From: Sipunculus nudus
Lineage: Eukaryota > Annelida > Sipuncula > Golfingiida > Sipunculidae
Assembly (NCBI GenBank): GCA_026874595.1
Contig: CM049311.1
Span: forward strand, 41,419,676-41,483,675
DNA length: 64,000 nt
Direction of reading: 5' to 3'
Shown: one piece after another, positions 8,346 through 59,640 of the stretch
Layout of the letters: the number at the start of each line of letters is the position of its first letter
How positions within the stretch are numbered: position 1 is the first letter of the stretch
Position numbers and translations under genes: made by a program
Notes under the pieces: model-generated
Told to the model about the DNA's origin: nothing
The model's database searches: none
The model's input: the letters and a program-made list of their open reading frames with translations, nothing else

Positions 8346-9760
8346 AAAGCATTTCATTTTTCATATACTGCTTAATTCATAAACTGCTGTTAATCTTGTT
8401 TTAGACTTGTGTTTAGTTTAGGTTATGTGTTGGATTCGTTGTCCAGCTGAAGTGTACTTCTGATCATCGCTGCCACTGGTTTATTTACAGATAACAGGGG
8501 TGCCTTTGTTCCTTTATTGGTTGGCTTGATAAGGATGGTGTGTTGATTCATTGTTGAACAGAAATATTCAGATATAGATAGGCCATTCAGGCAAGCCATG
8601 TGTTTTCTGATAAGCTTGTCCAGCACATACATAATATAAAAGGATGTTATCACTTTGTTTAAATTTTGCTGAATCAGTTCAATATACAGGGATAGAAATG
8701 TTTTCAAATACTGTCTTGCGGCTGCTGCAAGTGGTCTTGTAAATTAACTTGTCCTGGAGATTTGACTTGTGAAATAGTATAGATAAATATATCTTCATGG
8801 TCAACTGCAGATTCAAAAAGGATGACGATGGATAATATAACTTAATGTGTAAAAACAGAAGCAGATGAAATTATTTAAATTATGATAAATTTACAGAAAT
8901 ATATCAGTGTCATGTTATCTTGCATGAAAATAAATAAAACAATACAGATGTTCAGTTTTTCAGATCTCAATGTTGTATCATTGAAAGGGGTTTTGCTAGG
9001 CTAACATTTTGAAGAGTCCAGGACCCATAGGTATAAATTGTCAAGAATCCTGATGGTTCTAGCAAAAGAAATCTTTATATAGGGCATAATGTGTAGATTT
9101 TATATGTTGGAAACTATATATATTTAAAACAAATATTTTTAATGGTTGTTTTGTTCTTTAGAAAATTGTTTATTATCATTTGTGCTCCAAGCCATTCAAT
9201 TAACAGTAGGATCTTACACTGGGCTTTGGCAATTGTAACTCCCACCGTCCAGTGGGAAATAATTTGGCACAATATTTGTTAAATTTCAATAAATAGTTAA
9301 AACTCTTATATTATATGTGCTGCTTGTGCTACTCTTGGGTAGGAATTACCTGTAGTTATTAAATAACAGTTAATTCATTTGTAAAAAGCATAATTAACAT
9401 GACTGATAATGTACAGTTTTTCAAATACTTCTACTGCAATATAGATAAAGTTATATGGCCAAGTCAAAACTGTGAGACAATAGCACTCCATTTGTAAAAA
9501 ATATAAATGAAATCAATGCATTTCCCTGTCTCCAAAGATACTATCACAATCTTACATTAAAACTTGATCAAAATAAAATGTTATCCATAAAGAGGCTTTG
9601 CTCAAGCTTTAATATATATACATCTTTGTCCATTTGTTCTGAGTGGAATTGCTGGCTTAGTTTCCCCTGGGATTGAAAGAGAGGTTAAGTCTGCAAAAAT
9701 AAGGAAAGGATTTTAGGTGAAGCCTTCGGGTTTAATTCTGAACAAAACAAAGCAATAAAA
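8346..9760. other. AT-rich interval without recognised gene
   Basis: Frames are short and lack supporting splice sites or domain signatures. I see no RNA gene or sharp repeat boundary. Confidence 0.5.
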
Positions 9761-10130
9761 CAAGTGGCCCATGGGCCTTAATGCTCAGATGAATGTGATA
9801 TACAGGCATTCATTGATTTTATTAATGTATCTGCCAAACCAGTTTTCACCCGAGTTCCACCATGTTTGTGTCCGGAGAACCCCTTTCAGGACCCCTGGAC
9901 CAATCTTTCTGAAACCTGGCATAATTATCAGGTCACATGTGGACTATTGCCGGACAAAGACTGGTAGTGCCACCTTCAATCCTCTTCCTGCAGTGTCAAT
10001 CAATGTGTCTGATTTTAGTGAAAATAGCCCACACATGTCTTTATGGGATTACAGAGGCTGTCTTTATGGGATTACAGTAACCTTGACAACACGACTCAGC
10101 AGGCATTTATATTAGGCTGGTAAGCTTACT
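9761..10130 (+). repeat. Dispersed element left end with a stray satellite dimer
   Basis: It starts CAAGTGGCCCATGGGCCTTA then ATGCTCAGATGA, a variant of the common left end. Two copies of the 24-bp satellite unit (TCTTTATGGGATTACAGAGG and neighbour) sit at about 10036-10077, some 500 bp outside the main array. Confidence 0.6.
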
Positions 10131-10593
10131 TGAGTCATGATACAAGCCATATCAAGGAATGCATTACAGTAGTCTTCCATCATGTTGCATTCATATTGTG
10201 GTAAACAGCCCATTATCTTAACATTAGGCTATGAATACTGAATTTACACAAAAGAATCTCAACTAACAACCTAATCTCTATATACTATCTCATGCAAGTC
10301 TGCTCCATCCAGTAACCCCTCGGGAACCATGCTTGTATTCATGTAGTCAGAAATTCAGCAAACATTTGGAGGGATTTACCAATATGCTATTTTAAAATGG
10401 AATTTTTTTGTTCATGTTATGTGTTTATAGAAAATATACAAAAAGGCTTCCCTACAGGCCATGAGGCTTTGCAAGAAATGTAAAAAATATTTGCATCCTC
10501 ATGGGGCCTTAAAGTATGTTCCTCCCCAAAGGATGCAACGGCACTCTGGACAGCCAGTACGCTGGTCGTAGGAACTCTGTCAGAGGGCCAAAA
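10131..10593. other. Left flank of the satellite array
   Basis: No gene is recognised. About 10430-10590 resembles 5930-6062: both have GCATCCTCATGGGGCCTTA and GTCAGAGGGCC. The array begins inside or next to this dispersed segment. Confidence 0.5.
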
Positions 10594-13164
10594 AAGGCTG
10601 TCTATATGGGACTACAACAGGCTGTCTTTATGGGATTGCAGCAGGCTGTCTTTATGAGATTGCAGCAGGCTGTCTTAATGGGACTGCAGCAGGCTGTCTA
10701 TATGGGACTACAACAGGCTGTCTTTATGCGATTACAGCAGGCTGTCTTTATGAGATTGCAGCAGGCTGTCTTTATGGGATTGCAGCAGGCTGTTTTTATG
10801 GGACTGCAGCAGGCTGTCTTTATGAGATTACAGCAGGCTGTCTTTATGGGATTGCAGCAGGCTGTCTTTATGGGATTGCTGCAGGCTGTCTTTATGGGAT
10901 TGCAGCAGGCTGTCTATATGGGACTACAACAGGCTGTCTTTATGGGATTACAGCAGGCTGTCTTTATGAGATTACAGCAGGCCGTCTTTATGGGATTACA
11001 GCAGGCTGTCTTTATGAGATTACAGCAGGCTGTCTTTATGAGATTGCAGCAGGCTATCTTTATGGGATTGCAGCAGGCTGTCTTTATGGGATTACAGCTA
11101 GCTGTCTTTATGGGATTACAGCAGGCTGTCTATGAGATTACAGCAGGCTGTCTTTATGGGATTACAGCAGGCTGTCTTTATGAGATTGCAGCAGGCTGAC
11201 TTAATGGGACTACAACAGGCTGTCTTTATGGGACTACAGCAGGCTGTCTTTATATGAGTGCAGCAGGCTGTCCTTATGAGATTGCAGCAACTGTCTTTAT
11301 GGGATTGCAGCAGGCTGTCTTTATGGGATTACAGCAGGCTGTCTTTATGAGATTACAGCAGGCTGACTTAATGGGACTACAACAGGCTGTCTTTATGGGA
11401 CTACAGCAGGCTATCTTTATGGAATTATATCAGGCTGTCTTTATGGGATTGCAACAGGCTGTCTTTTTGGGACTGCAACAGGCTGTCTTTATGTTATTGC
11501 AGCAGGATTACAGCAGGCTGTCTTTATGAGATTACAGCAGGCTGACTTAATGGGACTACAACAGGCTGTCTTTATGGGACTACAGCAGGCTATCTTTATG
11601 GAATTATATCAGGCTGTCTTTATGGGATTGCAACAGGCTGTCTTTCTGGGACTGCAGCAGGCTGTCTTTATGATATTGCAGCAGGCTGTCATTATTGGAT
11701 TGCAGCAGGCTGTCTTTATGAGATTACAGCAGGCTGACTTAATGGGACTACAACAGGCTGTCTTTATGGGACTACAGCAGGCTGTCTTTATGGGATTACA
11801 GCAGCCTGACTTAATGGGACTGCAACAGGCTGTCTTTTTGGGACTGCAGCAGGATGGCTTTGTGATATTGCAGCAGGCTGTCATTATTAGATTGCAGCAG
11901 GCTGTCTTTATGGGATTGCAGCAGGCTGTCTTTATGGGATTGCAGCAGGCTGTCTTTATGGGATTGCAGCAGGCTGTCTTTTTGGGACTGCAACAGGCTG
12001 TTTTTATGTTATTGCAGCAGGATGTCAGCATGCTGTCTTTATGGGATTACAGTAGGCTGTCTTTATTGGATTGCAGCAGGCTGTCTTTATGGGATTGTAG
12101 CAGGCTGTCAGCAGGCTGTCTTTACGGGATTGCAGCAGGCTGTCTTTATGGGATTGCAGCAGGCTGTCTTTATGGGATTGTAGCACGCTGTCTTTATGGG
12201 ATTGCAGCAGGCTGTCTTTATGGGATTGCAGCAGGCTGTCTTTATGGGACTACAGCAGGCTGTCTTTATGGGATTGCAGCAGGCTGTCTTTATGGGATTG
12301 CAGAAGGCTGTCTTTATTGGATAACAGCAGGCTGTCTTTATGGGATTGCAGCAGGCTGTCTTTATGGGATTGTAGCAGGCTGACTTTATGGGATTACAGC
12401 AGGCTGTCTTTATGGGATTGCAACAGGCTGTCTTTATGGGACTGCAGCAGGCTGACTTTATGGGACTACAGCAGGCTGTCTTTATGGGATTGCAGCAGGC
12501 TGTCTTTATCAGACTACAGCATGCTGTCTTAATGGGACTACAGCAGAATGTCTTTATGGGATTGCAGCAGGCTTACTTTATGGGATTACAGCAGGCTGTC
12601 TTTATGGGATTGCAGCAGGCTGTCTTTATTGGACTGCAGCAGGCTGTCTTTATGGGATTACAGCAGGCTGTCTTTATGAGATTACAGCAGGCTGTCTTTA
12701 TGAGATTGCAGCAGGCTGTCTTTATGGGACTGCAGCAGGCTGTCAGCAGGCTTTCTTTATGGGATTTCAACAGGCTGTCTTTATGGTACTGCAGCAGGCT
12801 GTCAGCAGGCTTTCTTTATGGGATTGCAACAGGCTGTCTTTATGGGACTGCAGCAGGCTGTCAGCAGGCTGTCTTTATGGGATTGCAGCAGGCTGTCAGC
12901 AGGCTGTCTTTATGAGATTGCAGCAGGCTGTCTTTATGGGACTGCAGCAGGCTGTCTATATGGGACTACAACAGGCTGTCTTTATGGGATTACAGCATGC
13001 TGTCTTTATGAGATTACAGCACACTGTCTTTATGGGATTACAGCAGGCTGATTTTACAGGATTACAAAAAGATGTTTTTATGGAATTACAGCAGCCTGTT
13101 TATAGGATTTCAGTAGGGTTTCTTTATGGGATTACAACAGGCTGTCTTAAAGGGATAACAGCAG
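10594..13164 (+). repeat. Array block 1: simple 24-bp units
   Basis: This block is made of 24-bp units with single-base variants and no 72-bp higher order. From about 12000 to its end it is nearly identical to 14430-15587, including private changes such as CAGCACACTG and ACAGGATTACAAAAAGATG. This points to a whole-block copy at an offset of 2423 bp. Confidence 0.9.
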
Positions 13165-13353
13165 TCACATAACTGATAGGATTTAAATTCTGTTTATAAA
13201 CCACAGAAACACACAATAGACCTACCATCTTTATCCAATTTCCGATGGTCATATGCATTAAATATCTATGCTACACCATTAACTCATTACTTTATAGCTC
13301 CAGGACAACCCTAATTTACATGGGAATCTCTCATGAATATTAATGGAATTCTA
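13165..13353 (+). repeat. Array spacer S1 (189 bp, non-satellite)
   Basis: The sequence from CACATAACTGATAGGATTTA to AATGGAATTCTAATTACAGC is not built of 24-mers. It recurs as S2-S4 with only a few substitutions. S1 alone has CTACCATC where the others have CTACCGTC, and it carries TTAACTCATT. It marks block boundaries and can be used to order duplications. Confidence 0.9.
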
Positions 13354-13399
13354 ATTACAGCAGGCTGTTTTTATAGGAATACAACAGGATGTTTTTTAT

Positions 13400-14290
13400 G
13401 GGATTATAGCAGGGTGTTTCTATGGGATTACAACAAGATGTATTTATGGGATTACAGCAGGCCCTCTTTATGGGATTACAGCAGGGTGTTTCTATGGGAT
13501 TACAACAAGATATCTTTATGGGATTACAGCAGGCCCTCTTTATGGGATTACAGCAGGGTGTTTCTATGGGATTACAAAAAGATGTCTTTATGGGATTACA
13601 GCAGGCCCTTTTTATGGGATTACAGCAGGGTGTTTCTATGGGATTACAACAAGATGTCTTTATGGGATTACAGCAGGCCCTCTTTATGGGATTACAGCAG
13701 GGTGTTTCTATGGGATTACAACAAGATGTCTTTATGGGATTACAGCAGGCCCTCTTTATGGGATTACAGCAGGGTGTTTCTATGGGATTACAAGAAGATG
13801 TCTTTATGGGATTACAGCAGGCCCTCTTTATGGGATTACAGCAGGGTGTTTCTATGGGATTACAACAAGATGTCTTTATGGGATTACAGCAGGCCCTCTT
13901 TATGGGATTACAGCAGGGTGTTTCTATGGGATTACAACAAGATGTCTAAATGGGATTACAGCAGGCCCTCTTTATGGGATTACAGCAGGATGTTTCTATG
14001 GGATTACAACAAGATGTCTTTATGGGATAACAGCAGGCCCTCTTTATGGGATTACAGCAGGGTGTTTCTATGGGATTACAACAAGATGTCTTTATGGGAT
14101 TACAGCTGGCCCTCTTTATGGGATTACAGCAGGGTGTTTCTATGGGATTACAACAAGATGTCTTTATGGGATTACAGCAGGCCCTCTTTAAGGATTACAG
14201 CAGGGTGTTTCTATGGGATTACAACAAGATGTCTTTATGGGATTACAGCAGGCCCTCTTTATGGGATTACAGCAGGCAGTCTATATGGGA
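13400..14290 (+). repeat. 72-bp higher-order units in block 2
   Basis: Three 24-mers alternate in fixed order, ending GCAGGCCCTC, GCAGGGTGTT and ACAAGATGTC. This gives a 72-bp super-repeat (peptide order MGLQQALF, MGLQQGVS, MGLQQDVF in one frame). After about 14290 the block returns to simple GGCTGTC-type units. Confidence 0.9.
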
Positions 14291-15587
14291 TTACAGAAGT
14301 CTGTCTTTATGGGATTGCAGCAGGCCCTCTTTATGGGATTACAGCATGCTGTCTTTATTGGATTGCAGCAGGCTGTCTTTATGGGATTGCAGCAGGCTGT
14401 CTTTTTGGGACTGCAACAGGCTGTCTTTATGTTATTGCAGCAGGATGTCAGCATGCTGTCTTTATAGGATTACAGTAGGCTGTCTTTATTGGATTGCAGC
14501 AGGCTGTCTTTATGGGATTGTAGCAGGCTGTCAGCAGGCTGTCTTTACGGGATTGCAGCAGGCTGTCTTTATGGGATTGCAGCAGGCTGTCTTTATGGGA
14601 TTGTAGCATGCTGTCTTTATGGGATTGCAGCAGGCTGTCTTTATGGGATTGCAGCAGGCTGTCTTTATGGGACTACAGCAGGCTGTCTTTATGGGATTGC
14701 AGCAGGCTGTCTTTATGGGATTGCAGAAGGCTGTCTTTATTGGATAACAGCAGGCTGTCTTTATGGGATTGCAGCAGGCTGTCTTTATGGGATTGTAGCA
14801 GGCTGACTTTATGGGATTACAGCAGGCTGTCTTTATGGGATTGCAACAGGCTGTCTTTATGGGACTGCAGCAGGCTGACTTTATGGGACTACAGCAGGCT
14901 GTCTTTATGGGATTGCAGCAGGCTGTCTTTATCAGACTACAGCATGCTGTCCAAATGGGACTACAGCAGAATGTCTTTATGGGATTGCAGCAGGCTTACT
15001 TTATGGGATTACAGCAGGCTGTCTTTATGGGATTGCAGCAGGCTGTCTTTATTGGACTGCAGCAGGCTGTCTTTATGGGATTACAGCAGGCTGTCTTTAT
15101 GAGATTACAGCAGGCTGTCTTTATGAGATTGCAGCAGGCTGTCTTTATGGGACTGCAGCAGGCTGTCAGCAGGCTTTCTTTATGGGATTTCAACAGGCTG
15201 TCTTTATGGTACTGCAGCAGGCTGTCAGCAGGCTTTCTTTATGGGATTGCAACAGGCTGTCTTTATGGGACTGCAGCAGGCTGTCAGCAGGCTGTCTTTA
15301 TGGGATTGCAGCAGGCTGTTAGCAGGCTGTCTTTATGAGATTGCAGCAGGCTGTCTTTATGGAACTGCAGCAGGCTGTCTATATGGGACTACAACAGGCT
15401 GTCTTTATGGGATTACAGCATGCTGTCTTTATGAGATTACAGCACACTGTCTTTATGGGATTACAGCAGGCTGATTTTACAGGATTACAAAAAGATGTTT
15501 TTATGGAATTACAGCAGCCTGTTTATAGGATTTCAGTAGGGTGTCTTTATGGGATTACAACAGGCTGTCTTAAAGGGATAACAGCAG

Positions 15588-15776
15588 TCACATAACTGAT
15601 AGGATTTAAATTCTGTTTATAAACCACAGAAACACACAATAGACCTACCGTCTTTATCCAATTTCCGATGGTCATATGCATTAAATATCTATGCTACACC
15701 ATTAACTTATTACTTTATAGCTCCAGGACAACCCTAATTTACATGGGAATCTCTCATGAATATTAATGAAATTCTA
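15588..15776 (+). repeat. Array spacer S2
   Basis: It is a near-identical copy of S1 at +2423 bp, with TACCGTC and TTAACTTATT. It is followed by AATGAAATTCTAATTACAGC and the next 72-bp array. Confidence 0.9.
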
Positions 15777-15809
15777 ATTACAGCAGGCTGTTTTTATAGG
15801 AATACAACA

Positions 15810-17310
15810 GGATGTTTTTTATGGGATTACAGCAGGGTGTTTCTATGGGATTACAACAAGATGTCTTTATGGGATTACAGCAGGCCCTCTTTATGGGATT
15901 ACAGCAGGGTGTTTCTATGGGATTACAACAAGATGTCTTTATGGGATTACAGCAGGCCCTCTTTATGGGATTACAGCAGGGTGTTTCTATGGGATTACAA
16001 CAAGATGTCTTTATGGGATTACAGCAGGCCCTCTTTATGGGATTACAGCAGGGTGTTTCTATGGGACTACAACAAGATGTCTTTATGGGATTACAGCAGG
16101 CCCTCTTTCTGGGATTACAGCAGGGTGTTTCTATGGGATTACAACAAGATGTCTTTATGGGATTACAGCAGGCCCTCTTTATGGGATTACAGCGGGTGTT
16201 TCAATGGGATTACAACAAGATGTCTTTATGGGATTACAGCAGGCCCTCTTTATGGGATTACAGCAGGGTGTTTCTATGGGATTACAACAAGATGTCTTTA
16301 TGGGATTACAGCTGGCCCTCTTTATGGGATTACAGCAGGGTGTTTCTATGGGATTACAACAAGATGTCTTTATGGGATTACAGCAGGCCCTCTTTAAGGA
16401 TTACAGCAGGGTGTTTCTATGGGATTACAACAAGATGTCTTTATGGGATTACAGCAGGCCCTCTTTATGGGATTACAGCAGGCAGTCTATATGGGATTAC
16501 AGAAGGCTGTCTTTATGGGATTGCAGCAGGCCCTCTTTATGGGATTTAGCATGCTGTCTTTATTGGATTGCAGCAGGCCCTCTTTATGGGATTACAGAAG
16601 GGTGTTTCTATGGGATTACAACAAGATGTCTTTATGGGATTACAGCAGGCCCTCTTTATGGGATTACAGCAGGGTGTTTCTATGGGATTACAACAAGATG
16701 TCTTTATGGGATTACAGCAGGCCCTCTTTATGGGATTACAGCAGGGTGTTTCTATGGGATTACAACAAGATGTCTTTATGAGATTACAGCAGGCCCTCTT
16801 TATGGGATTACAGCAGAGTGTTTCTATGGGATTACAACAAGATGTCTTTATGGGATTACAGCAGGCCCTCTTTATGGGATTACAGCAGGGTGTTTCTATG
16901 GGATTACAACAAGATGTCTTTATGGGATTACAGCAGGCCCTCTTTATGGGATTACAGCAGGGTGTTTCTATGGGATTACAACAAGATGTCTTTATGGGAT
17001 TACAGCAGGCCCTCTTTATGGGATTACAGCAGGGTGTTTCTATGGGATTACAACAAGATGTCTTTATGGGATTACAGCAGGCCCTCTTTATGGGATTACA
17101 GCAGGGTGTTTCTATGGGATTACAACAAGATGTCTTTATGGGATTACAGCTGGCCCTCTTTATGGGATTACAGCAGGGTGTTTCTATGGGATTACAACAA
17201 GATGTCTTTATGGGATTACAGCAGGCCCTCTTTAAGGATTACAGCAGGGTGTTTCTATGGGATTACAACAAGATGTCTTTATGGGATTACAGCAGGCCCT
17301 CTTTATGGGA
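15810..17310 (+). repeat. 72-bp higher-order units in block 3
   Basis: Many 72-bp units run with short interruptions near 16490-16580 by GGCTGTC-type 24-mers. One unit has lost bases (CAGCGGGTGTT near 16190), which switches the open frame. Confidence 0.9.
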
Positions 17311-17557
17311 TTACAGCAGGCAGTCTATATGGGATTACAGAAGGCTGTCTTTATGGGATTGCAGCAGGCCCTCTTTATGGGATTACAGCATGCTGTCTTT
17401 ATGAGATTACAGCACACTGTCTTTATGGGATTACAGCAGGCTGATTTTACAGGATTACAAAAATATGTTTTTATGGAATTACAGCAGCCTGTTTATAGGA
17501 TTTCAGTAGGGTGTCTTTATGGGATTACAACAGGCTGTCTTAAAGGGATAACAGCAG

Positions 17558-17746
17558 TCACATAACTGATAGGATTTAAATTCTGTTTATAAACCACAGA
17601 AACACACAATAGACCTACCGTCTTTATCCAATTTCCGATGGTCATATGCATTAAATATCTATGCTACACCATTAACACATTACTTTATAGCTCCAGGACA
17701 ACCCTAATTTACATGGGAATCTCTCATGAATATTAATGAAATTCTA
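17558..17746 (+). repeat. Array spacer S3
   Basis: It is a copy of S1/S2 at +1970 bp from S2, with TTAACACATT. It shares this variant only with S4. Confidence 0.9.
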
Positions 17747-17789
17747 ATTACAGCAGGCTGTTTTTATAGGAATACAACAGGATGTTTTT

Positions 17790-18925
17790 TATAGGATTAC
17801 AGCAGGGTGTTTCTATGGGATTACAACAAGATGTCTTTATGGGATTACAAGCAGGCCCTCTTTATGGGATTACAGCAAGGTGTTTCTATGGGATTACAAC
17901 AAGATGTCTTTATGGGATTACAGCAGGCCCTCTTAATGGGATTACAGCAGGGTGTTTCTATGGGATTACAACAAGATGTCTTTATGGGATTACAGCAGGC
18001 CCTCTTTATGGGATTACAGCAGGGTGTTTCTATGGGATTACAACAAGATGTCTTTATGGGATTACAGCAGGCCCTCTTTATGGGATTACAGCAGGGTGTT
18101 TCTATGGGATTACAGAAGGCTGTCTTTATGGGATTGCAGCAGGCCCTCTTTATGGGATTACAGCATGCTGTCTTTATTGGATTGCAGCAGGCCCTCTTTA
18201 TGGGATTACAGCAGGGTGTTTCTATGGGATTACAACAAGATGTCTTTATGGGATTACAGCAGGCCCTCTTTATGGGATTACAGCAGGGTGTTTCTATGGG
18301 ATTACAACAAGATGTCTTTATGGGATTACAGCAGGCCCTCTTTATGGGATTACAGCAGGGTGTTTCTATGGGATTACAACAAGATGTCTTTATGGGATTA
18401 CAGCAGGCCCTCTTTATGGGATTACAGCAGGGTGTTTCTATGGGATTACAACAAGATGTCTTTATGGGATTACAGCAGGCCCTCTTTATGGGATTACAGC
18501 AGGGTGTTTCTATGGGATTACAACAAGATGTCTTTATGGGATTACAGCAGGCCCTCTTTATGGGATTACAGCAGGGTGTTTCTATGGGATTACAACAAGA
18601 TGTTTTTATGGGATTACAGCAGGCCCTCTTTATGGGATTACAGCAGGGTGTTTCTATGGGATTACAACAAGATGTCTTTATGGGATTACAGCAGGCCCTC
18701 TTTATGGGATTACAGCAGGGTGTTTCTATGGGATTACAACAAGATGTCTTTATGGGATTACAGCTGGCCCTCTTTATGGGATTACAGCAGGGTGTTTCTA
18801 TGGGATTACAACAAGATGTCTTTATGGGATTACAGCAGGCCCTCTTTAAGGATTACAGCAGGGTGTTTCTATGGGATTACAACAAGAGGTCTTTATGGGA
18901 TTACAGCAGGCCCTCTTTATGGGAT
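17790..18925 (+). repeat. 72-bp higher-order units in block 4
   Basis: These are 72-bp units. The first ones contain the unusual junction GGATTACAAGCAGGCCC (one extra base), which recurs at the same place in block 5. Blocks 4 and 5 are therefore recent copies. Confidence 0.9.
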
Positions 18926-19171
18926 TACAGCAGGCAGTCTATATGGGATTACAGAAGGCTGTCTTTATGGGATTGCAGCAGGCCCTCTTTATGGGATTAC
19001 AGCATGCTGTCTTTATGAGATTACAGTACACTGTCTTTATGGGATTACAGCAGGCTGATTTTACAGGATTACAAAAAGATGTTTTTATGGAATTACAGCA
19101 GCCTGTTTATAGGATTTCAGTAGGGTGTCTTTATGGGATTACAACAGGCTGTCTTAAGGGGATAACAGCAG

Positions 19172-19360
19172 TCACATAACTGATAGGATTTAAATTCTGT
19201 TTATAAACCACAGAAACACACAATAGACCTACCGTCTTTATCCAATTTCCGATGGTCATATGCATTAAATATCTATGCTACACCATTAACACATTACTTT
19301 ATAGCTCCAGGACAACCCTAATTTACATGGGAATCTCTCATGAATATTAATGAAATTCTA
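19172..19360 (+). repeat. Array spacer S4
   Basis: It is a copy of S3 at +1614 bp, again with TTAACACATT. S3 and S4 look like the youngest pair. Confidence 0.9.
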
Positions 19361-19404
19361 ATTACAGCAGGCTGTTTTTATAGGAATACAACAGGATGTT
19401 TTTT

Positions 19405-20640
19405 ATAGGATTACAGCAGGGTGTTTCTATGGGATTACAACAAGATGTCTTTATGGGATTACAAGCAGGCCCTCTTTATGGGATTACAGCAAGGTGTTTC
19501 TATGGGATTACAACAAGATGTCTTTATGGGATTACAGCAGGCCCTCTTAATGGGATTACAGCAGGGTGTTTCTATGGGATTACAACAAGATGTCTTTATG
19601 GGATTACAGCAAGCCCTCTTTATGGGATTACAGCAGGGTGTTTCTATGGGATTACAACAAGATGTCTTTATGGGATTACAGCAGGCCCTCTTTATGGGAT
19701 TACAGCAGGGTGTTTCTATGGGATAACAACAAGATGTCTTTATGGGATTACAGCAGGCCCTCTTTATGGGATTACAGCAGGGTGTTTCTATGGGATTACA
19801 ACAAGATGTCTTTATGGGATTACAACAGGCCCTCTTTATCGGATTACAGCAGGGTGTTTCTATGGGATTACAACAAGATGTCTTTATGGGATTACAGCAG
19901 GCCCTCTTTATGGGATTACAGCAGGGTGTTTCTATGGGATTACAACAAGATGTCTTTATGGGATTACAGCAGGCCCTCTTTAAGGATTACAGCAGGGTGT
20001 TTCTATGGGATTACAACAAGATGTCTTTATGGGATTACAGCAGGCCCTCTTTATGGGATTACAGCAGGGTGTTTCTATGGGATTACAACAAGATGTCTTT
20101 ATGGGATTACAGCTGGCCCTCTTTATGGGATTACAGCAGGGTGTTTCTATGGGATTACAACAAGATGTCTTTATGGGATTACAGTAGGCCCTCTTTAAGG
20201 ATTACAGCAGGGTGTTTCTATGGGATTACAACAAGAGGTCTTTATGGGATTACAGCAGGCCCTCTTTATGGGATTACAGCAGGGTGTTTCTATGGGATTA
20301 CAACACAATGTCTTTATGGGATTACAGCAGGCCCTCTTTATGGGATTACAGCAGGGTGTTTCTATGGGATTACAACAAGATGTCTTTATGGGATTACAGC
20401 AGGCCCTCTTTATGGGATTACAGCAGGGTGTTTCTATGGGATTACAACAAGATGTCTTTATGGGATTACAGCAGGCCCTCTTTATGGGATTACAGCAGGG
20501 TGTTTCTATGGGATTACAACAAGATGTCTTTATGGGATAACAGCAGGCCCTCTTTATGGGATTACAGCAGGGTGTTTCTATGGGATTACAACAAGATGTC
20601 TTAATGGGATTACAGCAGGCCCTCTTTATGGGATTACAGC
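19405..20640 (+). repeat. 72-bp higher-order units in block 5
   Basis: This is the last 72-bp array. It decays to simple units from about 20640 and stops at TTTGTGGGAATACATCAGG, where the inserted element begins. Confidence 0.9.
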
Positions 20641-20793
20641 AGGCAGTCTATATGGGATTACAGCAGGCTGTCTTTATGGGATTGCAGCAGGCCCTCTTTA
20701 TGGGATTACAGCAGGCCCTCTTTATGGGATTACAGCAGGCCGTCTATATAGGATTACAGCAGGCTGTCTTTGTGGGAATACATCAGGATTATT

Positions 20794-20820
20794 GTATCCC
20801 CAGACAAAGTCGGGGGATAC
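20794..20820 (+). other. Terminal hairpin of inserted element
   Basis: GTATCCCC pairs with GGGGGATAC around a short AGACAAAGTC loop. A related hairpin with a different but still paired stem (GTATCCGC/GCGGATAC) lies at 60487-60516. Confidence 0.6.
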
Positions 20821-21419
20821 TACGTTTTCATACCGGTCCTGCCGCCGCCACCACCACCGCCGCATATAAATCTTGTTAGCGCGATAACCCAAAAAATATT
20901 TCACGGAACTTTACCAAACTTGGTATATGTAGAGATATGGGTAAGAGGACGACGCCTATTTAAAATGAGGTCATGACCTTCACTAGGAGAGTGTCCTTGA
21001 CCTTGAATAGGTCCAATTTTGGGGAAAATCACACAAATTCTTTAATATCTCAAGAAATCTTGCATGGATTTATCCCAAAATCAAGTTGATGGAAGATCAT
21101 GGATAGGGTTGTCCAGAAACTTGTTTCCGTGCCTTTTAAACCCCTAAAAAATTGCCACCTTACAGTACTGTGAGCATTATAAGTCAAAAACTAATGGACA
21201 GATTTCTTTTATATAATGTAAATACATATGTATGGGTTATGGGATGATGTTTATTTAAATTGGGGTCATGACCTTTCCTATGAGAGTGGCCTTGACCTTG
21301 AATATTGCCATATATGGTGAAAATCACACACCTCTTATGATATCTCCAGTGTTGATAGCCAAATGGATTTCAAACATGACTTATGTATGGCCCACCACTA
21401 CAGTAAGAACCCTATAGGT

Positions 21420-22180
21420 TCTAGGGTCATGAGGTCAAAGGTCAAGGTCACTGGAGTGGCATTTTAAAAGATACTGTGGATGCATTTTAAGCCCAACTTT
21501 CATCCAAGGTCTTCCATCTTGAATATAAAGCTCACTTGCCAATACTGGATGATCCATATCAATTTTAGGGTCACAAGGCCAAAGGTCAAGGCCACTGGAG
21601 CTATCTTTCCAAAAATTAGTTTCTAGATGATAATTCCTGCTTTTATTGATGTATTGATTTCAAACTTGACTTATATATGTCCCATTGAAAAAGCAAGAAT
21701 CCAATTGATTTTTGGGTCATGAGGTCAGAGGTCAAGGTCACAGGACACATCTTTAAAAAGATGTGGATGCATTTTCAGCCAAACAATTCATCTAAGATCT
21801 TTCATCTTGCACATATAGTTCACCTGCCAAGAGTGGTAGAACCCTATCAATTTTGTGGTCACAAGGTCAAAGGTGAAGGTCACAGGAGCCATCTGTCCAA
21901 AAATTAGTTTCTTGATGATAATTGCTGCTTTTATTGATTTATGGATTTCAAACTTGACTTGTATATGTCCCATTGGAAAAGCAAGACCCAAATTGATTTT
22001 GGGGTCATGAGGTTAAAGGTCAAGGTCACAGGACACATCTTTAAAAAGATGTGGATGCATTTTCAGCAAAACATTTCATCTCAGATCTTTCATCTTGCAC
22101 ATATAGTTCACCTACCAAGAGAGGAAGAACCCTATCAAATTTGAGGTCACAAGGTCAAAGGTTAAGGTCACAGGACACAT
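21420..22180 (+). repeat. Tandem copies of AGGTCA direct repeats (DR1-like)
   Basis: At 21432-21450 AGGTCA, A, AGGTCA, AGGTCA run in a row. Variants follow near 21573, 21721, 21865, 22010 and 22150. AGGTCA half-sites spaced by one base are the classical DR1 site of RXR/HNF4-type nuclear receptors. Whether they act as sites here is unknown. Confidence 0.6.
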
Positions 22181-22370
22181 CTTTAAAAAGATTAAGGTCA
22201 CAGGACCAACATCTTCAACAAGATTGTGGATTGATAGATGGAAGAAACAATAAATATGCCAAGTGTCAGTATATGCTGCTAAAAATGGGAGCCAATTCTT
22301 AAAGGGGGGGGGGGGCTACTATATCTGGGGATACTCTGGCACCTGCGGTGCCAAGAAATGTCTAGTTTAT

Positions 22371-22408
22371 TATGGGATTACAGCAGGCAGTCTATATGGG
22401 GTCACAGC
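22371..22408 (+). repeat. Satellite remnant beyond the inserted element
   Basis: TTATGGGATTACAGCAGGCA then GTCTATATGGGGTCACAGC is a broken pair of the 24-bp units, matching the right-end variants near 20630. It shows the element went into the array. Confidence 0.8.
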
Positions 22409-24670: not shown

Positions 24671-25965
24671 GAATATGGGTAGTTGACAAGCGACTACGTG
24701 TATCCGCCAAATTCAGAGTAGGATGGGTGAAGTGAGGCAAGGATTGAGTGGCAAGGGGAAATAGAGTTACATGTGCTACATATTAGAATGGATCTCTGCC
24801 ACGTAAACATGATTGTATGTGGCGCCACCTGTTATTTGAACGAGAAACTATCCAAGATGAATACACATGCGAAATTTCAGGAGGAAAAGTCAAACCACTG
24901 CAGAGATATGAGTGATTTAATCCCACAGCAGACAAACAGATATACGCTGTGCAAAAAAAGCTGCAGGTGGCACCACCATTTTTGTGTATGTTTTAAAGCT
25001 ATCCAAGGGCTACATTTGAGTAAAAAATTTTTCCTGATTGGTCAAACAAGTCCAGAGATATAAGCATTAATGTCTGCAGCGTGAACGTGAATGAAGCTGG
25101 CGCCACCTGTCATAAAATCAAGAAAGCTATCCAGCATGTATATGCATGCCGAATTACAGGTAATTTGGTCAAACCACTGCAGAGATATGAGTGATTTACC
25201 CCAAGGCAGACAAACAGATGGATGTTGTGCAAAAATGGCTGCAGGTGGCACCACCATTTTTGTGTAAGATATATAGCTATCCAAGGGCTACATTTGTGTA
25301 AAAATTTTTTCCTGATTGGTCGAACGAGTCCGGAGATATAAGCATGGATGTCTACAGCGTGAACGTCAATGTAGGTGGCGCCACCTGTCATATAATCAAG
25401 AAAGCTATGCGGGATGTATACACATGCCAAATTTCAGGTAATTTGGTCAAACCACTGCAGAGATATGAGTGATTTTAACCCAAGGCAGACAAACAGATGG
25501 ACGCTGTGCAAAAATGGCTGCAGGTGGCGCCACCATTTTTGTGTATGTTATAAAGCTATCCAAGGGCTACATTTGAGTAAAATTTTTTTTCCTAATTGGT
25601 CAAATGGTTCTCCAGATATGAGCTTGGATGTCTGCAGTGTTAATGTGAATGTAGGTGGCGCCACCTGTCATAAAATCAAGAAAGCTATCTAGGATGTATA
25701 CGCATGCCAAATTTTGGGTGAATTAGTCAAACCACTGCAGAGATATGAGTGATTTTAACCGAAGGCAGATGAACAGATGGACACTGTGCAAACATGGTTG
25801 CAGGTGGCGCCACCATTTTTAAGTGTATGTTATAAAGCTTTCCAAGGGCTACATTTGTGCAAAATTTTTAGCCTTATCAGTCAAACGGTTCCCGAGATAT
25901 GTGGGTTTATGTGTTGAATCAGACGCACAAATGGACGCTGGGCAGAGAGGAAAGGTCAGAGGTCA
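24671..25965 (+). mobile_element. Element with terminal hairpin and 280-bp tandem units (copy A)
   Basis: The left end folds (24671-24705: GGGTAGT...ACTACGTGTATCC) and matches the left end of the copy at 59641. The body is about four tandem units of 279-280 bp. Each holds two sites based on GGTGGCGCCACC (for example 25374, 25523, 25654, 25803) and the phrase CAAACCACTGCAGAGATATG. It has no transposase frame. The right end seems truncated where block E text resumes. Confidence 0.65.
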
Positions 25966-30249: not shown

Positions 30250-32890
30250 ACAAGGGACCTATGGGTCACGGCGCTCAGCTGTTATATATGATTAAAAAAT
30301 ATGATTTAGGAATGAGGCTTATGCTGGTTTGGTGTGGTAATAAATATAAGCTTTATTATGAGTTGTTGGTGTTTAGCTTATGTATGATTATGATATTATC
30401 TTTGGAGACAGGTAAGAGGATTGATTTCATTTATTTTATTAACAAATGGAGTACTATTGTCACACAGATTTTGACTTGGCCATATAACTTATAAGCAGAA
30501 CATATGATATAAGAGTTTAACTATTTATTAAAAAAATTACAAATATTGTCCAAAATATAATTTTTTGTTAAAAATAACAAGAGAATCTTATGATTTTTTA
30601 AAATGAAATATAACTGAAATGATTATTAAAATAATATTAAAGAATATATTCATGAATGCATTCATGAATACATTTTGAAAGTATTTGCACTGGTATTCAT
30701 ATACTTTCATTTTTACCTGAATTCCAATTCTTTATGCAAGACATTTTATAATGGAGTACATATTAATATTCGTATTTAAATACAATTGCAAAGTTTTCCC
30801 ACCATTACTGGCATTTATTCAGTTTTCACTAAACAATTATGTTGAGAATCCAGAATATACAAAATTCACACATTTAAATTATGATCAAAAGTACCTGGTT
30901 TTATGGCTTTTATTTATATTAAAAAAAAAAAAGGTAATATATTCATTTTGGACTAATTTCACATCAATGTACACACTAGACACAGTAGGAATCTAGATTA
31001 ATAATATCAACTGCATCTTTGTCTATCATTAATTTCCTTCATATGATCCCTAATGATTAGTAATGAATAATATGATATACTTTTTTATCATTAAAATTGA
31101 ACTGAAAAATACCATAGGTGACTGCATGGTGTTATTTGGAGTACGTGACATTCTATCCATCGATACAAGATTCTTTTATCATCAGTAACTGCAAGTTGAT
31201 TTCCTGTTATTATAAACTAACAAATTCTTTTTTATTTTTCTTTAATTTGTTATTAAAAAAACATTAAAATTTATTAATTTATTGTTAATTGTTATGTTGT
31301 TGGTTAAAACTACTAGATGAGTTGGGTTGGACACCTGGATCAACTGTGGCTGGCCATAAGCTGCCTACCTGCAACAGTGTATGGCTCGCCTCAAGCATGC
31401 ATAATTTGCTGAAAGTTCAACAAGGTCAACATACAGGTGACTCAAGAGGGGCTGGAGAGAGTTAAGGTCTGACATGGTCTCATAAAAACATTAATAAAAG
31501 CTACAATTTTTGGCCAATTTCTTTCAGCTTTCTATACTAAAAAGCTGAAATCCTTGTGTGCATGATATGAAAATTATATCAACCGTGCTCACAGGAAACA
31601 AATGTGCCATGGTCAAAGTTGGGCAAAATTTTATGGTACTTATTTTATATTTATACTAATAACATATAATATTTGAAAAATTCAGGACTAATTTGGGGTA
31701 TTCAATTGAATCTTGATTAAATAATGTTACATCCCTGGCAAAAAAACTCTAGCTTCAGCAATCCCCTTGTTAAGGGAGTAAATATATTTCTTGATTTTTT
31801 ACATAATGCATTATGTTTGGGCCCATAACTTAAAACAATTACGCAATACTGACATCATTTCTGGCATATGCATAGAGAATGTATAGAAAAATATGTATAT
31901 TATATATGATTAAAGTCACATCAGTGGTTTTGATATTAGGCAGTCTTGAAGTGTAACAATGGGTTTTTAATGGAAAAATGAAGTTTTTCATTAATATCTC
32001 AAAGGTATTAAGTCCTAGTGACCAAATTCTTGGCATGGTAGGGAATTTTGGAGACATCTAATTGTATGCCAAATTTTAGGAACTGATAGCTGAAGCTGGG
32101 GAGCTGAGCTCTTGCAAACTGCATAACACTAGCTTGATGTAAACAATTTGTTACATGGTGCTTGAAAACTTGAATAAAATCTACAGTTTTTGATCAACTG
32201 GTTTCAAATTTTTGGTGTTAACAGACAAAATGCTAACAAAAACATGCTGAGAAAATTAAATCCACAGTACTTACAGTAAAAAAACGTGCCATGGTCAAAG
32301 TTGGGCAAAATTTAAGGTACCAATTTTTTATTTTTGTTAATATTTTAAAAAATTTAAAAGATTTTGATCTAATTTTGGGTATACAATTTAATTTTGATAA
32401 ACTGAAGTTATATTACTGGAAAAAAAGTCCATAGCTTTAACAAGTTTTGTGTTAAGTGATCAAATATCTTTCCTGATTTTTTACAAAATGCATTATGTTT
32501 GGGGCCATAACTTTTTTAAATTATATAATACAGACATAATTTCTGGCATGTACATAGGAACTATATAGAAGAATATTTATGGTAAATATGAGGGAAAACA
32601 GATGAGTGGTTTGGATATTAGGCAGTCCTGAAGTGTGAAAATAGGTTTTCAATAAAAAATTGAGGTTTTTCCTTAATTTCTCAAAGGAACGAAGTCGCAA
32701 AGACCCAGTTTTCGGCTTGGTAGGAGATCTTGGGGACATCTAACATTATGCTGAATTTTGGATTCGTAGGTCTTACGGTTTCAAAACGTGCCACATCTAC
32801 GGACGGACGGACGGACGGACGGACAGACGGACGGACGACGGACAATGGACCACGACTATAGCTCAGATGACTTATAGTCAGCTGAGCTAA
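30250..32890 (+). mobile_element. Family B element, copy 1
   Basis: The left end is CAAGGGACCTATGGGTCACG then GCGCTCAGCTG. The right end is a (GGAC)n run, then GCTCAGATGACTTATAGTCA and GCTGAGCTAAAAA. The right end can fold (AGCTCAG.TGACT/AGTCA.CTGAGCT). The interior holds repeat D and TTAATAAAAGCTACAATTTT-type text. It carries no convincing protein-coding frame. Confidence 0.65.
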
Positions 32891-35588
32891 AAATAAGAAA
32901 ATCATATGATTTTTTTAAATAAAATATAACTGAAATGATTATTAAAATGATATTATAGAATATATTCATGAATGCATTCATGAATACATTTTGAAAGTAT
33001 CTTCACTGGTATTCAAATACTTTCATTTTTACCTGAGTTCCCATTCTTATGCAATAAAAATTTTTAATGCAGTACATATTCATATTTGTATTCAAATACA
33101 TTTGCAAAGCATTCACACCATGTCTAGTATTTATTCAGTTTTAGCCAAACAATGATGTTGAGACTCCAGAATATACAAAATTCACATATTTAAATAATGA
33201 TCATAAGTATCTGGTTTTATGGCTTTTATTTATATAAAAAAAAATAAATGTAAAAAAAATTTTTATGTTCACTTTGGACACACTAGACACAGTAGGAATC
33301 TAGATTAACATTATCAACTATATCTTTGTCTATCATTATTGTCCTTCATATGATCCCTAATGATTAGTTATGAATAATATGATTTATTTTTTTAACATTA
33401 AAAATGAACTGAAAAATACCATAGGTGACTGCATGGTGTTATTTGGAATAACATTGACATTGACATTCTATCCATCCATACAAGTTTTTTACATCATCAG
33501 TAACTGCCAGTTAATTTCCTGTTACTCATCAACTAACAAATTCCTTTTTCTATTAATTTTTCTTTAATTTGTTATTAAAAACCAATAAAAATTTCTTAAT
33601 TTATTGTTTATTGTTATGTTGTTTTTCAAAACAACTACTAGATGAGTTGGGTTGGACATCTGGACATCAACTAGCCAAGCCAAAGAAAGTACACGCTTAT
33701 CGAGCAGCTACAGGTTGCTGTGACCTCAGCCCTGTGTGCTCCTTAAGCATGTTCTCTGAGCCAACAGTCGCAGTGCCACGCCAAGCCAAGCAGGGTGACG
33801 CAAAGGCCACCACCGTCCATCCCGAGCCGGTGACCCTTTTAGAAAGCTACAGCATCCACACCCACAAAGCTAGAAGCAACCCACATTCCCTCCAACAATC
33901 CCAGCAGCGGAGACCCAGCCATGCCATTTAATAGCCGATCTTGATCTTGTGAACGACACTGTTTCGAGACCCATTGCCATTGTACTTGCAGTTTCGGCCA
34001 TTTGGACCATATTAACCAGGTTTCCCGGTTATGCAAGTTTTAGCAAGTTTTCTTCGTCATCAGCACCTGGATCAACTGTGGCCGGGCATTTGCTGCCTGG
34101 CTGCCCCAGTGTATGCCTCGCCTCAAGCGTGCATAATTTGCTGAAAGGTCAACATACAGGTGACTGAAGAGGGGCTGGGTAGAGCCTGGGTCTGACATGG
34201 TCTCATAAAAAACATTAATAAATGCTACAATTTTTGGCCAATTTCTTTCAGCTTTCTAAACTACAAAGCTGAAATCCTTATGTGTGCATGATATTAAAAT
34301 TATATCAACAGTGCTCTCAGGAAACAAACGTGCCATGGTTAAATTGGGCAAAATTTAAGGTACTAATTTTATATTTATACTAATAACTTATAAAATTCGA
34401 AAAATTCAGAACTAATTTTGGGTATTCAATTAAATCTTGATTAAATAATGTTACATCCCTGACAAAAAATCTCAAGCTTCAGCAATCCTCTTGTTAAGGG
34501 AGTAAATATATTTCTTGATTTTTTAAAAAGTGCATTATGTTTGGGCCCATAAATTAAAACAATTACACAATTTTGACATCATTTCTGGCATGTGCATAGC
34601 GAATGTATAGAAAAATATGTATATTATATATGATCAAAGTCAGATCAGTGGTTTTGGTATTAGGCAGTCTTAAAGTGTAACAATGGGTTTTTAATGGGAA
34701 AAAAGAAGTTTTTCATTAATATTTCGAAGGAATTAAGTCCTATTGACCAAATTCTTGGCATGGTAGGGGATTTCAGTGACATCTACTGTATGCCAAATTT
34801 AAGGAACTTAGAGCTGAAGCTGGGGAGCTGAGCTCTAGCAAACTGCATAACACTAGCTTGATGTAAACAATGTGTGACATGGGGCTTTTAAACTTGAATA
34901 AAATTTAGTTTTTTATCAACTGGTTTCAAATTTTTGGTGTTAACAGTTAAATTGCTAACAAAAACATGCTTTGAAAATTAAACTCACAGCAGTTACAGGA
35001 AAAAAACGTGCCATGGTCAAAGTTGGGCAAAATTTAAGGTACCAATTTTTTATTTTTGCTAATATTTTAAAAAATGCAAAAGATTTTGATCTAATTTTGG
35101 GTATACAATTTAATTTTGATTAATAAAAGTTATATTACTGGAAAAAAGTGCTTAGCTTTAACAAGTTTTGTGTTAAGTGATCAAATTTCTCTCCTGATTA
35201 TTTACAAAGTGCATTATGTTTGGGCCCATAACTTTTTTAAATTGTATAATACAGTCCTATTTTCTGGCATGACTATAGGAACTATACAGAGGATTATTTA
35301 TGGTAAATATGAGGAAAAACAGATGAGTGGTTTTGATATTAGGCAGTCCTTTAGTGTGAAAATAGGTTTTTAATAAAAAATTTTCCTTAATTTCTCAAAG
35401 GAACGAAGTCGAAATGACCCAGCTTTCGGCTTGGTAGGAGCTCTTGGGGACATCTAACATTATGCCAAATTTTGGATTCCTAGGTTTTACGGTTTCAAAA
35501 TGTGCCACATCTACGGATGGACAGACGGACGACGGACAATGGACCACGACTATAGCTCAGATGACTTATAGTCAGTTGAGCTAAAAAG
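30571..35588 (+). repeat. Tandem duplication of a 2.3-2.7 kb family B block
   Basis: 30571-32887 and 32888-35588 are colinear: ATGAATGCATTCATGAATAC, ATGAGTTGGGTTGGACA, TTTCTTTCAGCTTTCTA, ATTTCTGGCAT and the (GGAC)n end recur in order. The second copy is longer mainly because of an extra GC-rich segment at about 33673-34065. More diverged partial copies lie at 37620-38220 and 43450-44188. Confidence 0.85.
33673..34065 (+). other. GC-rich segment present only in duplicate copy 2
   Basis: It is flanked by CTGGACATCAACT (33660) and CCTGGATCAACT (34066), which are contiguous as one site in copy 1 near 31342. The copy at 38018 also lacks it, so insertion is more likely than loss. The plus strand is open over most of it, but in different frames (…SIHTHKARSNPH… then …RPIAIVLAVSAIWTIL…). 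This looks like a damaged gene or retrosequence fragment. I do not recognise the source. Confidence 0.5.
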
Positions 35589-35624
35589 AAAAGTAATCAC
35601 AGCTATGAAATGAATACTGTGTGT

Positions 35625-38235: not shown

Positions 38236-38314
38236 TAACTGAATTTATCATTTTATTTCAACCCAAATCAGTGTTTTTTTTTCAATGAATCTCTTGACAC
38301 ACAAGCAAAATCAA

Positions 38315-38750
38315 CAAAAACTAAGTGAGTATGATGAATGATTTTATTTAATACTGACATGTCAAAAACTAAGTGAGTATGATGAATGATTTTATTTAAT
38401 ACTGATATGTCAAAAACTAAGTGAGTATGATGAATGATTTTATTTAATACTGACATGCCAAAAACTAAGTGAGTATGATGAATGATTTTATTTAAAAATG
38501 ACATGTCAAAAACTAAGTGAGTATGATGAATGATTTTATTTAATAATGACATGTCAAAAACTAAGTGAGTATGATGAATGATTTTATTTAATACTGACAT
38601 GTCAAAAATAAGTGAGTATGATGAATGATTTTATTTAATACTGACATGTCAAAAACTAAGTGAGTATGATGAATGATTTTATTTAAAACTGTTAGTCAAA
38701 AACTAAGTGAGTATGATGAATGATTTTATTTAATACTGACATGTCAATGA
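38315..38750. repeat. 48-bp tandem array, about nine copies
   Basis: The unit AAGTGAGTATGATGAATG, ATTTTATTTAATACTGACAT, GTCAAAAACT begins at 38323, 38371, 38419, 38467, 38515, 38563, 38610, 38658 and 38705. Two units lost one base. The minus-strand frame of repeated 16-residue units (MSVLNKIIHHTHLVFD) follows from the period being divisible by 3. Confidence 0.95.
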
Positions 38751-39518: not shown

Positions 39519-41580
39519 TTGATATAGACTAGATGTGTCGGTACGACACGAATGCCCCCTCCTGGGGCAAATTAGAAACATTTGTTAAATTTTGTAAAAA
39601 TTTTTTAAGTTCAGGAGGTGTTGTATTGTCAAAAGTAGGTCAAGAAGGGCAAAATGCAAACTCGATCTGTAACGGGTCATTATCAAGGAACACACCAAAA
39701 ATCAGGCCAGTATGCAGGCATTGTGAAAAAAAGTCCATACATGTGCATTTTTCATAAAAATTTCTGTCTTTCATGAAATTTTCTATGTTCAGGATCTGTC
39801 ATATGGTCAAAAATAGGTTAACTGGGATGAAACGCGAACTCGACCTTAAGTGGTCATAATGCGCCCACAGACCAAACATTGGGCCAGTATCTGTAAGCAT
39901 TGCATTGCGAAACTAGAATATTAGCAAAAGCTGGTAATCAGTTATAAATTTAAATTGGAGAGGTATGTACCATGTTTTATAACAATCCACCAAATGCTTC
40001 CTGAGAAATACCCCCCTAAGTTTTTTTTCTATACTAAGCTCTGTGACCTTGAAAAGTAGGTCAAGACCACCCATCTTTGAACCTGACCAAGATTTTGTAA
40101 ATATGATGCAAAAGCACTGAAGTAATGAAGTTCCTTAGTTGAACACCTTTGGAGATATCCTGCACAAAGGCCAAAATTGAAAAATCCGATAAAATTTCAT
40201 TAAAAAATCAGAAATTGCAGGTGACGCCACCAAAATTGTGCAGCACGTACAGACCATCAGTCCCAATGATCAAAGTAAGTTTTGTGAAAATCCACACAAT
40301 GGTTCCTGAGATATAAGCTTCTGAGTGTTTTTCTATAATCAGCTCTAAAATGTAGAAAAATGGGTCAAGGTCACCCATCTTGGAACTTGACCGAGATTTT
40401 ATCGATATACATCTTCACTGATGAAATAAAATTCCAACGGTGAATCCTTTTTGAGATATTCCGCTCACAAGGTAAAAGTTAACAGACGCGGAACAGACGG
40501 ACGGACAGACACCCAACAGACAGATGGACGGATAGACGAACAGCTTGGGTGACGACAATGGCCCATCAGCCTATGAGCTGAGGCCTAAAAACGGCTGTAC
40601 ATGTACATTTGTCATGAAAATTTATATTTTTCATGAAATTTTCTATGTTTAGGAGCCGTAAAACAATCATAAGTAGGTCAACCGGGACAAAACGCGAAGT
40701 CGATCTGTAACTGGTCATTATCTGCATACACACCAAAAATCAGGCCAATATCTGCAGGCATTGCGAAAAAAAGTCTGTACATGTGTATTTGTCATGAAAA
40801 TTTCTATTTTTCATGAAATTTTCCAAGTTAAGGAGCCGTAAATGGTCAAAAGTAGGTCAACCTGGAGGAAACGCGAACTCCATCTGTAACTGGTCAATAT
40901 CTGCATACACACCAAAAATCAGGCCAATATCTGCAGGCATTGCAAAAAAAAAGCCCGTTCATGTGTATTTGTCATGAAAATTTCTATTTTTCATGAAATT
41001 TTCTAAGTTAAAGAGCCATAAAACAGTCAAAAGTAGGTCAACCGGGAGGAAACGCTAACTCGATCTGTAACTGGTCAATATCTCCAGACACACCAAAAAT
41101 CAGGCCAATATCTGCAAGCATTGCAAAAAAAAAGTCCATACATGTGTATTTGTCATGAAAATTTCTATATTTCATGAAATTTTCTAAGTTAAGGAGCCGT
41201 AAAACGGTCAAAATATGTCAACCGGGACAAAACGCTAACTCGATCTGTAACTGGTCATTATCTGCCCACACACCAAAAATCAGGCCAATATCTGCAAGCA
41301 TTGAGAAAAAAAGTCCGTACATGTGTATTTGTCATGAAAATTTCTATTTTTCATGAAATTTTCTAAGTTAAGGAGCCATAAAACGGTCAAAAGTAGGTCA
41401 ACCGGGAGGAAACGCGAACTCAATCTGTAACTGGTCATTATCTGCCCACACAACAAAAATCAGGCCAATATCTGCAGGCATGGCGAAAAAAAGTCCGTAC
41501 AACTGTTTGATTTCGGAAGGACGGAATGAAGGACATGGGTAAAACTATATGCCCCGGCCACTTTGTGGCGGGGGCATAAC
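39519..41580 (+). repeat. Element with about five 181-bp tandem units
   Basis: It starts CTAGATGTGTCGGTACGACA with CGAATGCCCCCTCCTGGGGC. It ends ATGCCCCGGCCACTTTGTGG CGGGGGCATAAC. From 40600 units of about 181 bp repeat TTTCATGAAATTTTCTAAGT, AAAAGTAGGTCAACCGGGA, ACTCGATCTGTAACTGGTCA and CACCAAAAATCAGGCCAATA. A (GGAC)n-like run lies at 40498-40530. Confidence 0.8.
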
Positions 41581-59500: not shown

Positions 59501-59640
59501 TATGTTGGGATTACTATTTTGTCAATATTATTTGTGTCTCATTAATGAAACATTTTTCCAAAGTGTGGTCTACATTCGAGGAACAAACAGTATATACATC
59601 CACTTGTTTCAACTAAAGTGCTAATTTCTGAATACAACTA

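Follow-up and report, generated by a model that had tools for sequence, protein, structure and literature searches.

How does a short tandem repeat acquire order on several scales at once? The question is raised by a ten-kilobase array in Sipunculus nudus (Annelida; Sipuncula), which lies on contig CM049311.1 of assembly GCA_026874595.1 within a stretch of 64,000 nucleotides (positions 41,419,676 to 41,483,675 of the forward strand), here called the window, in which all positions below are counted. A first-pass annotation, made from the letters alone, had described nested periods of 24 bp, 72 bp and about 1.6-2.4 kb, and all three are borne out by Tandem Repeats Finder, by decomposition into monomers and by self-comparison. 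By the size of its array and of its unit the locus is a minisatellite, very probably a non-coding one. Its growth was very probably local and took three steps, in which misaligned copies exchanged sequence in a homology-dependent manner.

The array and its 24-bp unit

Tandem Repeats Finder reports one array at 10595-20787 (10.19 kb, or 10.2 kb in round figures), with periods of 24, 48 and 72 bp. Wraparound decomposition into 24-bp units, run separately on the five segments between the spacers (Table 1), yielded 405 monomers, 395 of which are complete; the other 10 are incomplete and stand at either end of the five segments. Gaps and insertions are absent from 363 of the 395 complete monomers, which comprise 115 distinct sequences. 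The commonest unit types are A, GGCCCTCTTTATGGGATTACAGCA (56 copies), B, GGGTGTTTCTATGGGATTACAACA (53 copies) and C, AGATGTCTTTATGGGATTACAGCA (44 copies).

Unit-like 24-mers (at most 6 mismatches) occur 372 times inside the array, all on the plus strand, and 3 times elsewhere in the window; each of three base-shuffled versions of the flanking sequence contains 0. A length of 24 bp falls within the usual 10-100 bp convention for minisatellites, and unit and array together lie in the minisatellite size range (units of the order of 15 bp, arrays of 0.5-30 kb). A 23-mer of the unit is absent from the viral contigs searched, and a pattern with 20 fixed bases matches prokaryote contigs exactly once in 257 billion bases, against a chance expectation of about 0.5 (both collections may omit records of the window's own genome). 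Five 16-base strings taken from the A units and from the Z units typical of segment 1 gave no match in the papers searched.

Since the unit contains GGATTA, the array might be thought of as a sink for K50-type homeodomain proteins (Otx/Pitx/Bicoid type), whose site is TAATCC. Indeed, GGATTA is found 230 times in the array against 22 times on both strands in the rest of the window, but this count follows from the repeat itself. Moreover, every other hexamer of the array consensus is better preserved in segment 1 than GGATTA, which survives intact in 14.3% of 105 monomers, whereas CAGGCT does so in 79%. Such a pattern of conservation speaks against a sink, and we regard the idea, which derives from the motif, as hardly conceivable.

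Triplet order

In segments 2-5 the three common unit types follow each other in a fixed cycle. The order A-B-C occurs as 50 triplets, whereas 1000 shuffles averaged 2.75 and never exceeded 8, and 166 of the 167 steps among A, B and C units follow the cycle, the remaining one being A-A. The mean p-distances at lag 3 and lag 1 are 0.138 and 0.201 in segment 2, 0.073 and 0.223 in segment 3, 0.082 and 0.220 in segment 4, and 0.047 and 0.211 in segment 5. Copies of several units are thus more alike than neighbouring units in these four segments, which makes them higher-order repeats (HORs). The lag-3 distance is as low as 0.022-0.042 in 6 of the 20 successive 20-monomer windows.

Segment 1 behaves differently: its third neighbours (0.166) and direct neighbours (0.154) are about equally distant, and it therefore has neither triplet order nor the character of an HOR. 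The 72-bp order that had been proposed for parts of the array consequently stands for segments 2-5, where it is confined to parts of each, and not for segment 1 or the second half of segment 2, both of which are without ABC.

Spacers and kilobase blocks

The segments are separated by four copies of a non-satellite spacer, 2423, 1970 and 1614 bp apart, which differ from each other at 0-3 of 186 bases. Within the window its 12-mers recur only as two short runs on the minus strand, near 6790 and 42838. The first-pass annotation had every block closed by the same spacer of 189 bp. Four copies agree with this, but the fifth segment ends in the flank, and the length is about 187 bp with the cuts chosen here. 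The spacer was also considered as a specially conserved piece. This was rejected, as the whole cassette of 478 bp around it differs at 3-9 bases among its four copies, so that 0-3 differences in 186 bases represent no excess conservation.

A scan over lags between 300 and 9499 supports the duplication of whole blocks: two large tandem copies (Table 1) lead its 60 best runs. The one with lag 2423 shows the second half of segment 2 to have been copied from that of segment 1. Also among the best 60 runs are 832 bp at 13527-14358, copied at 18185-19016 and 16571-17402 with 10 and 11 mismatches; lower in the ranking, 16204-16546 recurs without a mismatch at 17042-17384 (343 bp). The same history is visible in two clusters of 35-bp steps (24 + 11), made by the partial unit CAGCAGGCTGT: the cluster at 15132-15355 is the block-duplicated copy of that at 12709-12932, 2423 bp on.

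At each of five block ends three markers, AGCTGGCCC, CTCTTTAAGG and GGCAGTCTATATGGG, follow one another in an unchanged order. The spacing between AGCTGGCCC and CTCTTTAAGG is 84 bp at all five; that between CTCTTTAAGG and GGCAGTCTATATGGG is 91 bp at four and 451 bp at the fifth, a difference of exactly five triplets. One additional CTCTTTAAGG, at 19976, is not accompanied by AGCTGGCCC.

Repeats of this kind are hard to assemble, and exact internal repeats here reach 453 bp, so that part of the hierarchy might be an artefact in which the copy numbers of triplets or blocks are wrong. The block copies differ, however, by scattered substitutions (18 in 1834 bases and 9 in 1563) and in their number of triplets, neither of which a simple duplication by the assembler would create. 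We therefore consider an artefact quite improbable.

Edges of the array

Short relics of the unit are found on either side of the array, outside the limits given in the first-pass annotation (Table 1). The right-hand relic carries GGCAGTCTATATGGG beyond the reported end, and the array therefore probably once extended that far. The segment in between, as judged from direct reading of the letters, may be a later insertion that cut the right end of the array; the two members of its 11-base inverted pair lie at 20794-20804 and 22324-22334, with some 31-37 unexplained bases up to the relic. A 288-bp tandem repeat is present at 21363-22192, within the putative insertion, and has inverted relatives between 3.1 and 6.3 kb.

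The relics and the insertion-like segment would also suit an array belonging to an abundant satellite family with many loci, spread perhaps by a mobile element that carries it, as described for oysters. Satellite-like arrays of oysters are often tied to Helitron-type elements (PMC8268682, PMC11136912, PMC5139131), and the window is rich in dispersed and tandem repeats. Reading and self-comparison of the flanks, however, revealed no element ends enclosing the array, as would be expected for the tandem-repeat core of a Helitron or pearl-type element, but only the 11-base inverted pair to its right, and apart from the 3 matches at the two relic sites no unit occurs elsewhere in the window. Membership of such a family is compatible with local growth at this locus; we hold it to be possible, though somewhat doubtful.

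Table 1. Features of the array and its edges (positions in the window)
Feature	Position	Strand	Remarks
Relic of two 24-bp units, to the left of the array	10032-10078	+	the 24-mer at 10032 has 3 mismatches to its closest unit variant, that at 10055 has 1
Segment 1	10595-13165	+	111 monomers, Z type (GGCTGTC...), irregular, no 72-bp order; holds a cluster of 35-bp steps
Block duplication, lag 2423, first copy	11937-13770	+	second copy 14360-16193, 18 mismatches in 1834
Spacer copy 1 (non-satellite)	13166-13352	+	ends set by the chosen cuts
Segment 2	13353-15588	+	96 monomers, ABC triplets first, then a Z-type stretch
Spacer copy 2	15589-15775	+	
Segment 3	15776-17558	+	76 monomers, mostly ABC triplets
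Block duplication, lag 1614, first copy	16548-18110	+	second copy 18162-19724, 9 mismatches in 1563
Spacer copy 3	17559-17745	+	
Segment 4	17746-19172	+	61 monomers, mostly ABC triplets
Spacer copy 4	19173-19359	+	identical to copy 3 over 186 bases
Segment 5	19360-20787	+	61 monomers, mostly ABC triplets; runs into flanking DNA without a spacer
Possible insertion splitting the right end of the array	20794-22334	.	bounded by the 11-base inverted pair GTATCCCCAGA / TCTGGGGATAC; proposed from direct reading of the sequence
Array relic beyond the possible insertion	22372-22408	+	carries the block-end marker GGCAGTCTATATGGG at 22386

Coding potential, RNA and structure

A unit of 24 bp is a multiple of three, and long open frames are present; the array could thus encode, or once have encoded, a protein repeat of eight residues, AVFMGLQQ on the plus strand or CCNPIKTA on the minus strand. 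Several statistics lean this way. The third positions of both frames vary most (class means of 0.737 versus 0.419 and 0.456 over 389 monomers), with a permutation p of 0.030 for the third-position class and 0.089 for the best of the three classes. When changes are weighted by copies, synonymous ones exceed expectation for AVFMGLQQ (117 versus 68.6 in segment 1, 93 versus 64.7 in the later segments) as well as for CCNPIKTA (111 versus 74.3 and 129 versus 77.3).

This excess disappears for the most part when distinct changes are counted once: the synonymous counts are then 9 against 9.2 expected (AVFMGLQQ) and 12 against 11.2 (CCNPIKTA) in segment 1, and 22 against 20.4 and 30 against 24.5 in the later segments. 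In our view, a few variants that spread to many copies account for the copy-weighted excess. Nor is there a clear depletion of stops; counted by copies, they number 18 versus 16.8 and 15 versus 10.1 in segment 1, and 27 versus 31.8 and 21 versus 13.7 in the later segments, and are near or above expectation in three of these four counts. Four of the six frames of the consensus unit are open, compared with 6 x 0.68 = 4.1 for a 24-bp unit by chance. The frame is shifted by steps of 35, 47 and 59 bp, and the spacer is crossed by no open reading frame (ORF) of at least 80 residues. Judged by open frames, site classes and synonymous counts, a coding repeat is rejected, and we consider it very improbable.

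The array had also been placed near a gene. Among 29 of the 73 ORFs of at least 75 residues outside the array none reached the gathering score of a Pfam family, and no gene was identified among them, in a scan that would overlook short exons. One of these ORFs (9759-10112) takes in the left relic. The scan also covered the ORF at 10513-11199, which lies mainly in the array and exceeds the gathering score for LINES_C (30 versus 27 bits, E 3.5e-07), other families remaining below their cut-offs. No single stretch of it passes, the score being summed from weak repeats, and the match was dismissed as a repeat artefact. The window contains no RNA family at threshold and no tRNA, and no sign of structure emerged when five stretches were folded as DNA, the z-scores lying between -1.20 and 2.07.

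Origin of the array

The growth that we propose would have started with tandem multiplication and divergence of the 24-bp unit, as seen in segment 1. To the right of the spacer-interrupted unit, a run of three diverged units (A, B and C) would then have been amplified as a 72-bp whole, and kilobase blocks including the spacer would subsequently have been duplicated in tandem at least twice, before the possible insertion cut the right end. The exchange could have been unequal crossing-over, gene conversion or in-register slippage, and the product would presumably lack a function. This order of events, which had already been suggested in the first-pass annotation, draws support from the typing of monomers, the order of markers and the identities between blocks.

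The monomers around four seam points are whole, with a one-base deletion near 16547. Since incomplete monomers occur only at the segment ends, the 24-bp register is preserved across the seams, which is what one would expect of homology-dependent exchange. The sites that vary in the 478-bp cassettes group copies 1 and 2 apart from copies 3 and 4 in two cases, and five changes are private to copy 1; in a comparison without an outgroup, these differences fit growth towards the right.

The role of identity between the exchanging copies was explored by simulating whole-unit duplication and deletion with mutation, a crude model with a random starting unit, a fixed exchange rule and few settings. Without identity dependence an HOR arose in 1 of 120 runs (1 of 90 at a looser threshold), and with strong dependence at the lower mutation rate in 40 of 60. 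The simulated divergence between adjacent units in the latter setting, 0.24, is near the 0.21-0.22 observed in segments 3-5.

Several points weigh against growth by exchange as set out here. Strong dependence at the higher mutation rate produced an HOR in only 2 of 60 runs, and weak dependence did so in 7 of 60 and 31 of 60. Triplets are not favoured by the model: the simulated lags range from 2 to 10, with triplets in 3 of 40, and the triplet is therefore one of several outcomes. The order of events depends on an unrooted comparison of sequences, and slippage, gene conversion and rolling-circle reinsertion are not told apart. In addition, the longest exact internal repeat (453 bp) leaves room for assembly error, and the copy-weighted site statistics lean towards a coding frame.

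A bolder view would take the locus as a frozen record of the birth of HORs outside centromeres, in which three stages adjoin one another within 10 kb: the ancestor without order (segment 1), the triplets and the blocks. Triplet order is found only to the right of the first spacer, and the spacer, by breaking the homology between units, may have insulated the right side and so let triplets take hold. We consider this view unlikely.

Other repeats in the window

Dispersed and tandem repeats are numerous in the window and include stretches of GGTCAAAGGTCAAGGTCA and the motif GGCCCATGGGCC, which may be shared with bivalve genomes. A tandem array with a 48-bp unit (9.1 copies, 95% matches) is located at 38315-38747, with an open frame on the minus strand at 38271-38630. 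Four copies of a 278-bp tandem repeat at 24780-25900 have relatives about 34 kb away, at 59636-60347, and the palindrome GGTGGCGCCACC is present in both. The window further contains a 1.5-kb direct repeat, whose two copies (31332-32896 and 34064-35590) are 89% identical and which has less similar copies (73-75%) near 43.5-44.2 kb. A 180-bp tandem repeat is present at 40587-41501 (5 copies, 91% matches), and a diverged copy of it lies near 39.6 kb.

Comparison with known systems

Minisatellite units are described in PMC8122249 as "larger (~15 bp)", with arrays of 0.5-30 kb. The 24-bp unit and 10.2-kb array resemble minisatellite or variable number of tandem repeats (VNTR) loci both in this size range and in the alternation of variant units along the array. 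Variants are called "randomly interspersed" in PMC2363947, whereas the triplets and spacer-bearing blocks here show greater regularity.

Centromeric HORs, such as those of primate alpha satellite, are likewise built of units that differ more within the HOR than the HOR copies do from each other (0.21-0.22 versus 0.05-0.08 in segments 3-5). In contrast to these, the present unit is 24 bp long and not nucleosome-sized, the array measures 10 kb, and its blocks contain a non-satellite spacer. The likeness to centromeric satellites is an analogy of organisation only, and there is no evidence for a centromere here.

A further comparison is with the satellite-like arrays of bivalves. Higher-order units built of subrepeats are also known from Ac4p1 of Adamussium, and PMC5874043 discusses how such units in a scallop form from subrepeats by unequal crossing-over or slippage. 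Arrays such as Cg170 are, like the present one, interrupted by other sequence, and PMC5139131 describes mollusc satellite monomers that are split or partly replaced by unrelated sequence. In oysters, according to PMC8268682 and PMC11136912, monomers range from 21 and 28 bp upwards, and many are tied to Helitrons. The monomers of Ac4p1, of Cg170 and of other arrays of these two kinds are longer than the unit in S. nudus, and the likeness drawn here is one of organisation.

As a single locus the array is ordinary repeat DNA with an unusually readable history of growth. It is of value as a small natural experiment on the emergence of triplet and block order, in which old stages adjoin young ones, so that long reads from individuals could yield the lengths and rates of exchange. 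Objects of this kind are already known from the systems above; what we describe is an unusually legible three-level minisatellite, explained by known processes.

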